NCBI RefSeq assembly: GCF_009696315.1
Contig: NZ_VUMG01000002.1
Location: 620,001-684,000 of the forward strand
Reading direction: 5' to 3'
Source of the DNA: Cutibacterium porci
GTDB taxonomy: Bacteria > Actinomycetota > Actinomycetes > Propionibacteriales > Propionibacteriaceae
DNA length: 64,000 nucleotides
Every line of letters starts with the position of its first letter. The stretch's first letter is position 1. A program made the translations under genes and the position numbers. Below are positions 24,364 through 29,358 of the stretch, piece by piece. The notes under the pieces are model-generated. The model ran no database searches. It had not been told where the DNA came from and saw only the letters and a program-made list of their open reading frames with translations.

Positions 24364-26469
24364 TTACCGGTTCGCCTCCACCATTTGACGCAGTTCCTTT
24401 TTCAGATCAGCAATTTCGTCACGCAGTCGGGCAGCAACCTCAAACTTGAGTTCGCCTGCGGCAGAACGCATGTCGTTGGTGAGATCGACGATAAGATTGC
24501 CCAGATCCTCTTCGGCCATCTTGGATGCGTCGAGTCGTTTACCTTGAGCTGCGCGCTGCTCGTCAGTAATCATCGAGTTGTAACCGCGGTGGCCCTTGCC
24601 ATAGTTGAATTTCTCGACGAGCTCATCAGTATCGGCACCTTCGCGGGCCAGCATTTCAGTGATGTCACCGATCTTCTTACGTAGTGGCTGCGGATCGATC
24701 CCGTGCTCCTTGTTATAAGCCATCTGGATGTCACGACGGCGGTTTGTCTCGTCAATCGCGACGCGCATGGAGTCGGTGATCTGGTCGGCGTACATGATGA
24801 CTTGTCCGTTGACATTTCGGGCAGCACGGCCCACGGTCTGGATCAGCGAACGTTCAGAACGCAAGAAGCCCTCCTTGTCGGCGTCGAGAATCGCCACCAG
24901 GGAGACTTCAGGGAGGTCAAGCCCCTCTCGTAGCAAGTTGATACCGACAAGCACATCGAACTCGCCGATGCGCAACTCTTTGAGTAGCTCAATGCGTTTG
25001 AGGGTGTCGATCTCCGAATGCAGGTAGCGGGTCCGAATCCCGTGCTCCATGAGATAATCAGTGAGATCTTCAGCCATTTTCTTCGTCAGGGTCGTCACTA
25101 GGACACGATCACCACGGTCGACTCGTGCGCGAATTTCTCCCATGAGGTCGTCAATCTGGCGACGCGTGGGCTTGACAATAATCTCCGGATCCACCAAGCC
25201 CGTCGGACGGATGATCTGCTCGACGACACCGTCGGCTCGCTCAGTCTCGTAGGAGCCAGGGGTAGCGGACAGGTAGACGGTTTGACCTATCCGCTGGGTG
25301 AACTCGTCGAACTTGAGCGGACGGTTATCCATCGCGCTGGGCAGCCGAAAACCATGCTCAACTAACGTCCGCTTACGGCTCATGTCCCCCTCATACATGC
25401 CACCAATCTGTGGCACCGTCACATGGGACTCATCAATGACAAGCACAAAATCTTCAGGGAAATAGTCAAGTAGACAGTTCGGAGCCGAGCCGGGTGCGCG
25501 ACCGTCAATGTGGCGCGAGTAATTCTCGATACCAGCGCACGCGCCAACTTGCTGCATCATCTCGATGTCGTAGGTTGTGCGCATTCGTAGCCGCTGGGCT
25601 TCCAACAGTTTCCCGTCACGCTCTAGAACGGCTAGGCGCTCTTCCAGTTCCTGCTGGATAGAGGCGATAGCCCGCTCCATACGTTCCGGGCCGGCAACAT
25701 AGTGAGTGGCCGGGAACACGTAGACCTGCTCGTCCTCACTGATGACCTCTCCCGTGAGCGGATGCATCGTTGTGAGGGCCTCAATTTCGTCGCCGAAGAA
25801 CTCGACGCGCAGCGCGTTCTCCTCGTAGACCGGAAAAATCTCGAGGGTGTCACCACGTACCCGGAAGGTGCCGCGCTCTCCTGACATGTCGTTACGGACG
25901 TACTGGTTGGTGACGAGGTCGCGCAGCAACTCATCGCGATCCCACTCTTGGCCGACCTCCAGCGGAATCATCCGATCTACGTATTCCTGAGGCGTGCCCA
26001 GACCATAAATGGCCGAGACGGTTCCCACCACAATGACGTCGCGCCGGGTGAGCAGCGAGTTCGTCGCAGAGTGACGTAACCTTTCAACTTCCTCGTTGAG
26101 GCTGGAATCTTTCTCGATATAGGTATCCGTCTGGGGAATATACGCCTCAGGTTGGTAGTAATCGTAGTAAGAAACGAAGTACTCGACGGCATTGTCCGGA
26201 AAGAACGTACGTAATTCCTGGGCAAACTGGGCAGCCAGCGTCTTGTTGGGTTGCATGACGAGCATCGGGCGCTGCAGCTTCTCCGCCAGCCACGCCACGG
26301 TGGCCGTCTTGCCAGTACCGGTGGCGCCGAGCAGAACGACGTCCTGTTCGCCGCTGTTGACCCTCTTCTCTAACTCCGCGATGGCCTGCGGCTGGTCACC
26401 AGAAGGCTGAAACTCACTGACGACGTGAAACGGGGCAACGCGGCGAGTGATGTCAGTGACAGGGCGCAT
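24364..26469 (-). CDS. uvrB: Excinuclease ABC subunit B
   Basis: Damage-verifying helicase-like subunit of excision repair. In 701 residues: Walker [12 protein letters not shown], the beta-hairpin region [20 protein letters not shown]-like VIDESH, helicase motifs [10 protein letters not shown] and QTVGRAARN, and a C-terminal UVR domain ([20 protein letters not shown]) that contacts UvrC/UvrA. Complete. A 7-bp inverted repeat (24261-24278) follows its stop. No LexA box was recognised upstream. Confidence 0.97.
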
Positions 26470-26584
26470 AGCTCCACCCTAGTTCAAGCCACCCGCGATG
26501 GGATCAGCTGAAAGCGTGCGACCGGGTTCGAGACCTCAGATCCGCAAGCCTGCATCTCCGGTCCCGATGAGCCTGGCTGGATGA

Positions 26585-26770
26585 GCCTCCCACCCGTATT
26601 GTGGAATCATCCGTGGATACTCGGACTATCTTCATGGCTCGAAGAAACATGGCAGTTCAGTTCAAGGGGTCAACTTTGTGCGCTCGCCATGCGTCAAGGC
26701 CGGCAGTTGGTCCTATGCTCGCACCGATGCAGCATGGTTCGGGAACAAGGCTTGGTACCGCACCTGCTGA
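26585..26770 (+). pseudogene. Remnant of a lactococcin 972-family bacteriocin gene
   Basis: In the frame ending at the TGA 26768-26770 the translation contains YSDYLHGSKKHGSSV, then VRSPCVKAG, SWSYARTDAAWFGNKAWY and a final RTC. This has the layout of the lactococcin 972 mature peptide (SNY.H..K.H.SSV, then a Cys/AG/W block, then GN.A.Y near the C-terminus). The frame opens right after a TGA at 26582-26584, and no start codon, SD or signal peptide is found in the 115 bases back to uvrB, so the secretion signal is lost. Downstream genes are the class that accompanies this bacteriocin family. Homology is by eye. Confidence 0.72.
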
Positions 26771-26781
26771 CAACCCCATCA

Positions 26782-26816
26782 CAGGCGGCACGCCCTACGG
26801 TGGGACGTGCCGCCTG
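26782..26816 (+). terminator. Perfect 11-bp hairpin after the bacteriocin remnant
   Basis: CAGGCGGCACG pairs exactly with CGTGCCGCCTG around a 13-base loop, 12 bases after the remnant's stop and 38 bases before the membrane-protein start. It fits a partial terminator setting a higher level of bacteriocin than transporter message. Confidence 0.65.
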
Positions 26817-26854
26817 GTACCCCTCCACGGTCCGATCAGAAGGAAGCCGCCACA

Positions 26855-28115
26855 ATGATAAGACGACCCTCACCGGTATCCCTCCCCTACTTTCTGACGG
26901 CAGTTGTCGCCGTTCTTATGGCATCATTCTGTTGGGCGCGGTAGAAACGGTGCTCCCCTCAGCTAGGCACCCCGTCATCGTTCTCGTCGAGGGAACACCA
27001 GCCCGAAACGTCTCGGCGGTCGACTCGTGGATGTCCACGTATTCGCAACGACAACATGTGGCGGTCGGGCGTTGGCAGGCCGATCTGAACAATCTGGAAT
27101 CCTCTCGGGGGCTCTATGTAGTTTCCGCAGCCGGCCGCACTCTCAATCCGTTTCCTAAGGGTTACCCGAATCTGTCATCGCACATGGTCACCCATATCGC
27201 CCACATGGATCAAGATCAATCCACCGATCGCAGCGGCGAGTACCTCGTCTGGCAACGCCGCCGATGCCACCACATTCGCCTCCGGAATGAGTGCATTGGG
27301 GTTTCGCTCCTCGGGACAAGGCCAGGTGAACCTGGGACTCGTTGCCAGCCATAATCCTGGCATCATCAAGGCGTACGGCGGGATGATGGGGGCATTGGCC
27401 GCCCTGGTCATGGCGGCGGTGTTCGCCCGGACTCGGCGTTACGGTATTCTCCGTTTGCACGGTCACTCGTGGCTACACCATGCCAGCCGAGAAACTCTTC
27501 ATGCGGTATCCGTCGCAGCGTGTAACGGCTTTGATCAGTGTGCCGATCCTCGGCTTTTACAACGGTTTAACTCAATGGATGCGATGGTTTCGCTGGTCAA
27601 TCCAGATATGGCCGTCGCAGTACTCCTCACAGTCGAGATCGTGACGTTGGGTCAAGCGCAGAAATCCTGGCTCAGGTCAAGGGTCGAATGACCAGTCTCC
27701 CGGTCTTCTCCGCCTCGTATCTGCTTCGCTTTCCGGTGGCCATGTTGGCGATACTGCTGATAGTTTCAGTCACCTCTGCCACACGGGAACTGTGGCGCTA
27801 TGAAGACCAACAAGCCCAATGGGCCACGGTCGATCGCCACGTGGGGCGGATCACATCGGCTCGGCTCTCACGACTATTTCACCTTCGGGCAGCAGTTCCC
27901 CGAACAGGGTCTGTCAGCAACGACGACCGATCCCGCAATGATCCGCGTCCCCTCAGGACTATTGCCGGGTGATGACCTCACCACAGCATTGACTACCGGT
28001 GGAATTCTCCTGCTCGATCCCAATTCCGAGTCCCGACGCGTCACGTCCAGCCCCTCGCTTGCCAGGGCAGTTGCCAGCATCTCCCCTACAGGGGCATCCA
28101 CAGCCCAGAACGCTT
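26855..28115 (+). pseudogene. Frameshifted bacteriocin-associated integral membrane protein (TIGR01654/DUF1430-like)
   Basis: ATG 26855 follows AAGGA and encodes a signal-like start (MIRRPSPVSLPYFLTAVVAV) that stops at 26942. Coding then continues in another frame (VIVLVEGTPARNVSAVDSWM to HMVTHIA, about 26940-27200), shifts again (ATTFASGMSALGFRSSGQGQ, then the membrane stretch AYGGMMGALAALVMAAVFAR, to about 27470), and later gives the stretch SYLLRFPVAMLAILLIVSVT from 27688 and the block FPEQGLSATTTDPAMIRVPS up to about 28090. At least three frame changes mean it cannot be expressed whole. The family is inferred from layout and from the bacteriocin-like remnant upstream. Confidence 0.65.
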
Positions 28116-28583
28116 CCCGACAGCGGCCACATCGTGATCGACGGCACGGACATCCTTGCCATCCCGCGTCGACGGCACAAGCGTGTCCGCCGTGAGACCA
28201 TTGGCTACCTCTTCCACGCTCTGCTCGAGAGCGCTACGGTACGCGAAAACCTAGACATCGCAGCGCACCCAAGACCCTTACTACCCAAACCCTCCTTCGC
28301 ATCCGCCTTGGAACGCGTTGGACTGCCCGGGCAGGAACAAACTCCCGTACACACCCTTAGCGGAGGCGAACAGCAGCGTGTCGCCTTGGCTCGATTGCTC
28401 CTCAAGCCGAGCCGGATCATCCTGGCCGACGAACCCACGGCCTCACTTGACCGCGACAACGAGGACATGATCCTAAATCTTCTACAAGGCCTCGCCAATG
28501 AAGGCAAAGTGATACTTCTCGCCACTCACAGCGACCGAGTCGCGAGTCGTTGTTCGCAGGTGCTGTCACTGCACCATCGCTGA
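28116..28583 (+). pseudogene. Truncated ABC transporter ATPase, Walker A missing
   Basis: From PDSGHIVIDGTDILAI the frame continues with TVRENLDIA, the signature LSGGEQQRVALARLLLKP, Walker B IILADEPTASLD and the switch histidine in ATHSD, to a stop at 28583. The N-terminal third with Walker A is gone, and the Q-loop reads YLFHALLESATV, lacking the expected Gln. The membrane-protein remnant runs straight into it, so one deletion probably removed the end of one gene and the start of the next. It cannot bind ATP normally. Abuts coaE, convergent. Confidence 0.85.
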
Positions 28584-28596
28584 TTGTCCGATCGCT

Positions 28597-29256
28597 TCAC
28601 GTCGAGAAACGAGACGACTCGCTCTCAATGATTGTCGACCATGCACGGTTAACTTTTCCCGGAAGATCCCTCAACGGCCCACTGGTGTCGATGACGATGT
28701 CGGCAGCCGCCAGACGCTCCTTGCGAGAAGCTTGAGCACGAATCCTCGCCCATGCATCGTCCTGGCTAGCCCCATCCCTCTCGACGACTCGACGAACCTG
28801 TTCGGCAGGGTCGATATCCGTAACCACCACGACGTCGAACTCGTCGGCCCGCCCAGTCTCGACAAGCAAGGGAATATCGTGGACGACGACCATGACTCCT
28901 TTGGCGATGCGGGCCTGGTCATCGACTCGACGGGCAGCCTCCTCCACCAGTGGATGGATGATGGATTCGAGGCGATGTCGGGCCCGTGAATCAGAAAACA
29001 CGATGGACCCCAAGGCGGCCCGATTCAGGGAACCATCGGCAGCAAGAATCTGTGGTCCAAAGGCCTCGACGACCTGGGCGAGGCCTTGCGTCCCAGTAGC
29101 GACGACGTCGCGAGATAGCTGATCGTAGTCGATAATGGTGGCCCCGTGGGCGGCCAGCAGCCGAGACACCGTCGATTTTCCACTGGCAATACCACCGGTC
29201 AGACCGACGCGAACCACACCATCTGGCTCAACGCCACGAATAGCCCGTTCCGGCAT
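28597..29256 (-). CDS. coaE: Dephospho-CoA kinase
   Basis: Phosphorylates the 3'-OH of dephospho-CoA, the last step of CoA synthesis. P-loop GLTGGIASGKSTVSRLL, then the conserved IIDYDQLSRDVV and VHDIPLLVETG blocks. The ATG at 29254-29256, 5 bases after AAGG, gives 219 residues; a GTG 11 codons earlier has poor SD spacing. Its 3' end is 13 bases from the decayed ABC ATPase. Downstream of rpsA, as in many actinobacteria. Confidence 0.94.
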   Translation of the reverse strand: MPERAIRGVEPDGVVRVGLTGGIASGKSTVSRLLAAHGATIIDYDQLSRDVVATGTQGLAQVVEAFGPQILAADGSLNRAALGSIVFSDSRARHRLESIIHPLVEEAARRVDDQARIAKGVMVVVHDIPLLVETGRADEFDVVVVTDIDPAEQVRRVVERDGASQDDAWARIRAQASRKERLAAADIVIDTSGPLRDLPGKVNRAWSTIIESESSRFST

Positions 29257-29358
29257 CGTCACCTTGTCACCTGTCCCCGTGTACGTCACACCCTCAGCAT
29301 AAATTGGCTGGGGCAGCCATTGTCATCACATGAGTACAGCGATAGGCTGACGCACAAC

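Follow-up and report, generated by a model that had tools for sequence, protein, structure and literature searches.

The window, a 64,000-nucleotide stretch of the Cutibacterium porci genome (G000), carries between uvrB and coaE what is very probably the pseudogene relic of a lactococcin 972-type operon, one that was apparently exchanged between species and then broken independently in them. The interval measures about 2.1 kb and holds no recognisable intact plus-strand gene. The assembly is a 19-contig draft from the one strain of the species that was examined. The names uvrB and coaE for the two neighbouring genes follow the original prediction. The uvrB-coaE interval was inspected in all nine genomes of the genus set, G000 included. 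The features of the locus and its surroundings are as follows.

24364–26469, minus strand: uvrB, the left neighbour (open frame, aligned in relatives)
26585–26770, plus strand: truncated lactococcin 972-type bacteriocin, mature part only (PF09683, TIGR01653, alignment with G001)
26590–26612, no strand: point at which about 155 bases present in G001 are missing (alignment with G001 and G005)
26782–26816, no strand: palindrome or stem-loop between the bacteriocin and the membrane gene (repeat search, folding)
about 26855–28120 (borders approximate), plus strand: membrane-protein pseudogene in several frames (frames, alignment with G001 and G005)
28116–28583, plus strand: C-terminal part of an ABC ATPase (TIGR03608, motif search)
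28597–29289, minus strand: coaE, the right neighbour, convergent with the ATPase remnant (open frame, nine of nine genus genomes)

Bacteriocin, membrane protein and ABC ATPase follow one another on a single strand, which is the order of a lactococcin 972 locus, the middle gene being assigned via relatives. G001 and G005 show the identical order at the identical place beside uvrB. The sequence is best read as a decayed lactococcin 972-type locus, because the bacteriocin profile matches, the ATPase finds its best model in this family and the relatives share order and position. The three-gene ruin of the original prediction was therefore recovered, with matches to PF09683 and TIGR03608 and with its genes ordered as in relatives. 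A search of 72,556 plasmid records, a set that may omit those closest to the genome of the window, gave two matches at E 0.001 (Streptomyces, 41% identical; Arthrobacter, 38%).

The bacteriocin frame encodes 61 amino acids with 0 internal stops and has neither an ATG nor a leader, exactly as had been described for a bacteriocin-like C-terminus whose signal peptide and start are gone. PF09683 matched it at E 1.4e-12 with 48.4 bits (cut-off 22), which places the frame in the family. The other profile proposed as a check on the peptide, TIGR01653, gave E 1.5e-6 and 28.4 bits and so stayed under its cut-off of 32.1; the longer bacteriocin frame of G001 also falls just short of it (31.6 bits). The frame is the sole PF09683 match in the G000 genome (E 0.001), and none of 14 control genomes gave a match to this family. 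In the peptide, 50 of 52 residues are equal between G000 and G001. By comparison with G001 and G005, the missing 155 bases or so are those that held the leader, the start and a ribosome-site-like sequence. Leader and start are both present as sequence in G001, the leader as judged by eye. The window copy is thus a pseudogene of the bacteriocin family and no working member. Counted against a dead locus is that the peptide frame of G000 is still open. Over 52 codons this frame differs from that of G001 by 2 silent and 2 changing differences; constraint on it was considered and dropped, as these are too few to separate drift from constraint.

Behind the bacteriocin lies a palindrome of two 17-nt arms, 88% complementary, with a folding z of −2.97 (2 of 200 shuffles were equally good). 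It is also found in G001 and in G005, where the arms are perfect at 15+15; the stretches searched in L018, L019 and L020 held no repeat of this kind of length 9 or more. In the window the palindrome has no T run behind it and is absent from the output of the terminator scan, and a role as terminator was rejected on these grounds. Of the 'terminator hairpin' proposed earlier, the hairpin is real and the terminator role is not supported.

After the palindrome, plus-strand pieces occupy all three plus registers, and their DNA aligns with the G001 and G005 copies (94% and 88% in the first block), in agreement with the predicted membrane gene broken by several frame changes. Measured against these copies the pseudogene is missing about 340 bases internally and differs by short changes in length. 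None of the pieces lying between the bacteriocin and the ATPase matched a Pfam or NCBIfam family at E 0.1, TIGR01654 and PF07242 included; a Lactococcus lactis positive control passes TIGR01654. Similarly, the 312-aa frame of G001 found no Pfam or NCBIfam family and the 519-aa frame of G005 no Pfam family, and the G005 membrane copy reached 15 bits against TIGR01654. A 681-aa membrane protein of G004 scored 40 bits against TIGR01654 and 19.3 bits against PF07242, under the respective cut-offs of 189.35 and 28.2. In searches limited to those regions, the G001 and G005 membrane copies match this G004 protein at E 5e-23 and 1e-23. When the G004 protein was used in a whole-genome search none of the window pieces was found at E 0.01, and in a region-only search two of them matched weakly (E 0.010 and 0.041). 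Since the G001 and G005 copies resemble the G004 protein, itself below the TIGR01654 cut-off, sequence likeness ties the window gene to TIGR01654 weakly and through relatives. The window gene is a candidate member of TIGR01654, as had been proposed.

The ATPase tail has TIGR03608 (lactococcin 972 ABC) as its best model, with E 5.4e-43 and 146.9 bits over profile positions 50–206 of 206. Its score is under the cut-off of 254.85 and it is without Walker A, so that the fragment does not count as a member of the family; the G005 orthologue is likewise under the cut-off (207.8). An LSGGEQQR motif and a Walker B-like stretch are present, and the frame ending at 28583 contains no Walker A pattern, as predicted for this ATPase. 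Relative to G001 and G005, a loss of about 600 bases took the end of the membrane gene together with the front of the ATPase. A further 6 bases are missing inside the tail, at what is presumably the place of the Q-loop.

Within the uvrB-coaE interval the lactococcin locus occurs in G000, G001 and G005, and none of these three larger copies is whole. The 616-base interval of G006 retains a short piece of the membrane-gene region and the ATPase tail, and in G007 115 of 196 bases match the end of the locus. No remnant was found in the intervals of G002, G003, G004 and G008, those of G004 and G008 being gaps of 54 and 22 bases. Comparing the interval across the genus, as had been proposed, thus traced the locus to three genomes and short remnants to two more. 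The intact copies expected in relatives did not appear, as none of the nine genomes has a complete three-gene copy in this interval. PF09683 has six matches in total, in five of the nine genomes. G004, G008 and, as a second copy, G005 have lactococcin 972 genes outside the interval, and in the G004 and G008 loci each of the three genes, for bacteriocin, membrane protein and ATPase, has an open frame. The second G005 locus (L018 4300–6367) has its membrane gene in two frames of 438 and 248 aa, compared with the single 681-aa frame in G004. In the wider family PF09683 matched in 14 of 197 sampled genomes.

G002 (L021 4177–5250) and G003 (L022) carry a 358-aa frame between uvrB and coaE in place of the lactococcin locus, and the gap thus looks like a place where genes turn over. 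PF03601 matches the 358-aa frame in a profile search run on that of G002. In G001 (L016 2442–14608) and G005 (L017) a heme/metal island lies between the lactococcin locus and coaE; the window interval does not have it. The island comprises HtaA, Mg-chelatase-like, VWA, CobN, FecCD permease, ABC ATPase and binding-protein genes and is about 96% identical between the two genomes, compared with about 87% for uvrB. Where the lactococcin locus of G005 meets the island (L017 4943–5374) a piece of an ABC-transporter gene and a coaE 3' end are fused into one remnant. A full coaE lies 13 kb beyond it in G005, and coaE-like sequence follows the ATPase of G001 too. Possibly the island brought a coaE of its own.

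Each of the three larger copies has its own lesions. G000 has the three large losses (about 155, 340 and 600 bases) and small length changes, several of them of 6–11 bases. In G001 a whole 93-aa bacteriocin frame stands behind a ribosome-site-like sequence, single-base length changes shift the frame of the membrane gene, and the ATPase has one stop. G005 has a stop in the bacteriocin and single-base changes that frame-shift the membrane gene, and its ATPase is whole. In a three-way alignment G000 and G005 agree against G001 at three single-base length differences in the membrane gene. We read these as G001 changes, since those places are spanned by G005 frames with a match to the G004 protein. 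One 2-base difference between G001 and G005 lies in DNA lost from G000 and was counted to neither genome. Because the assignable lesions differ between G000, G001 and G005, decay looks independent in the three, which is the simplest reading. Deletion via short direct repeats was also considered. Near the ends of the three deletions the longest shared words measure 5, 5 and 6 bases, and the idea was dropped because pairs of 50-base stretches drawn at random from G001 mostly share 5 or 6.

Divergence at the locus is low. In three blocks of it G000 and G001 differ at 14 of 335, 52 of 1185 and 22 of 465 sites (about 4%), whereas their uvrB genes differ at 143 of 335 synonymous sites (43%). This disparity suggests, with uvrB as the sole yardstick, that the locus was exchanged between species after their split. 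Between G001 and G005 the differences amount to 163 of 333 synonymous sites in uvrB; in the locus they affect about 10% of all sites and in the iron island about 4%. Divergence is higher (21 of 199) in a single 200-column block of the membrane gene, near a deletion end where the alignment is uncertain. The uvrB genes of G000 and G001 are themselves less different near the locus, with 10, 15, 18, 19, 32, 25 and 32 differences per 200 bases. In the uvrB tree, where the G001 and G005 sequences are partial, G000 and G001 are joined with support of 87/86 (not starred). Low divergence from G001 also favours the earlier suggestion that decay may be recent; the open peptide frame, which had been offered as the argument for it, does not.

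Straight inheritance from a common ancestor, with the low divergence due to slow change or to older constraint, would do without any exchange and strikes us as unlikely. One old insertion fits the shared place and order in G000, G001 and G005 and the remnants in G006 and G007. G001 and G005 differ in the ATPase tail mostly at third codon positions (7, 4 and 18 for the three positions), a pattern that shows past constraint; between G000 and G001 the counts are 3, 4 and 6, with 5 silent and 7 changing codons. Against this explanation, the broken genes of G000 and G001 are far closer to each other than the synonymous sites of uvrB would lead one to expect, and in all six pairs of four genomes the ATPase tails are more alike than the third positions of uvrB. 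Could the locus merely look broken? A 257-aa frame at 26581–27354 is open, and its pieces align in G001 and G005, yet it reads the bacteriocin in another frame, matches no Pfam or NCBIfam family and has its register interrupted in both relatives. We find it scarcely credible that this frame, or any other mechanical one, represents a real gene. Sequencing or assembly faults, which would leave the species with a working operon, are very improbable as well. The genome is a 19-contig draft and some breaks involve one or two bases only, but losses of about 155, 340 and 600 bases, several more of 6–11 bases and comparable decay in relatives argue against them. Large losses and losses of 6–11 bases are atypical of sequencing or assembly errors.

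We therefore return to the reading of an exchanged and independently broken operon. Taking its working from the known family, the ancestral operon would have encoded a secreted lipid II-binding peptide, a membrane protein and an ABC ATPase. On this reading it lay between uvrB and coaE in the ancestors of five or more of the nine genus species and apparently passed among some of them after their split, the copies then breaking independently. Because all three window genes lack parts, no working product is expected, and G000 would be predicted to have no working bacteriocin, transporter or immunity. More tentatively, the uvrB-coaE gap could be a turnover site in the stricter sense that one operon was passed by recombination from one Cutibacterium species to another and repeatedly lost, with a different gene broken in each species. 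In G001 the broken ones would be the transporter and presumed immunity genes, with the peptide frame whole. This raises the question of whether a strain like G001, with its peptide frame kept and its transporter broken, still makes and resists the peptide. A caution for annotation is that the 257-aa frame should not be recorded as a gene.

Lactococcin 972 itself is encoded by the lcn972-orf2-orf3 operon on the Lactococcus lactis plasmid pBL1, according to the part of PMC4055356 used here. In contrast to that operon, the window locus is chromosomal, distant in sequence and broken. The G001 peptide matched Lactococcin 972 (PDB 2lgn) at E 0.0087. Excerpts of PMC11796350 and PMC4055356 describe the family peptide as binding lipid II, blocking septum formation and being thought to be Sec-exported, and the two further proteins as presumed to act in immunity and transport. 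The functions of B and C are given as lacking experimental verification in the sections of PMC11796350 consulted. The streptococcin B locus scbABC of S. pneumoniae is likewise a three-gene lactococcin 972-like locus, and natural deletion variants occur in part of the population (PMC11796350, in part). Its likeness to the window locus lies in gene content and deletion variants as described, not in sequence or regulation.

The loci of C. acnes are also among the closest known. Among the literature titles found, in a search run without the window's species name, none named another Cutibacterium species. Acnecins I and II of C. acnes are lactococcin 972 homologues, and acnecin I occurs in type I and type II strains, as stated in the portion of PMC12993555 available. 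An island of the present kind and its repeated loss in C. acnes are already in print: the passages of PMC4746626 drawn on here report the lactococcin 972-domain gene lost in clade II and the island in clade III. PPA_0802 is listed at 93 aa in an excerpt of PMC4289311, and a 114-aa reading in strain 266 is printed (PMC4746626, PMC4289311, both in part). The G001 frame has this printed length of 93 aa, and the 114-aa reading is open in G001 too. As in the PPA0802/indel_25 region described in parts of these two papers, the lactococcin 972-type gene of G001 adjoins an HtaA/CobN/FecCD island. The G001 layout fits indel_25, the two being likened by layout and length and not by sequence. Unlike the C. 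acnes island as far as these excerpts describe it, the window is without the iron island and has all three genes broken. The window locus is thus a real and ordinary fossil of a known kind, and the comparison across genomes gives it a mild interest. It brings one more genome to the C. acnes pattern of repeated loss already printed and extends that loss through several species of the genus.
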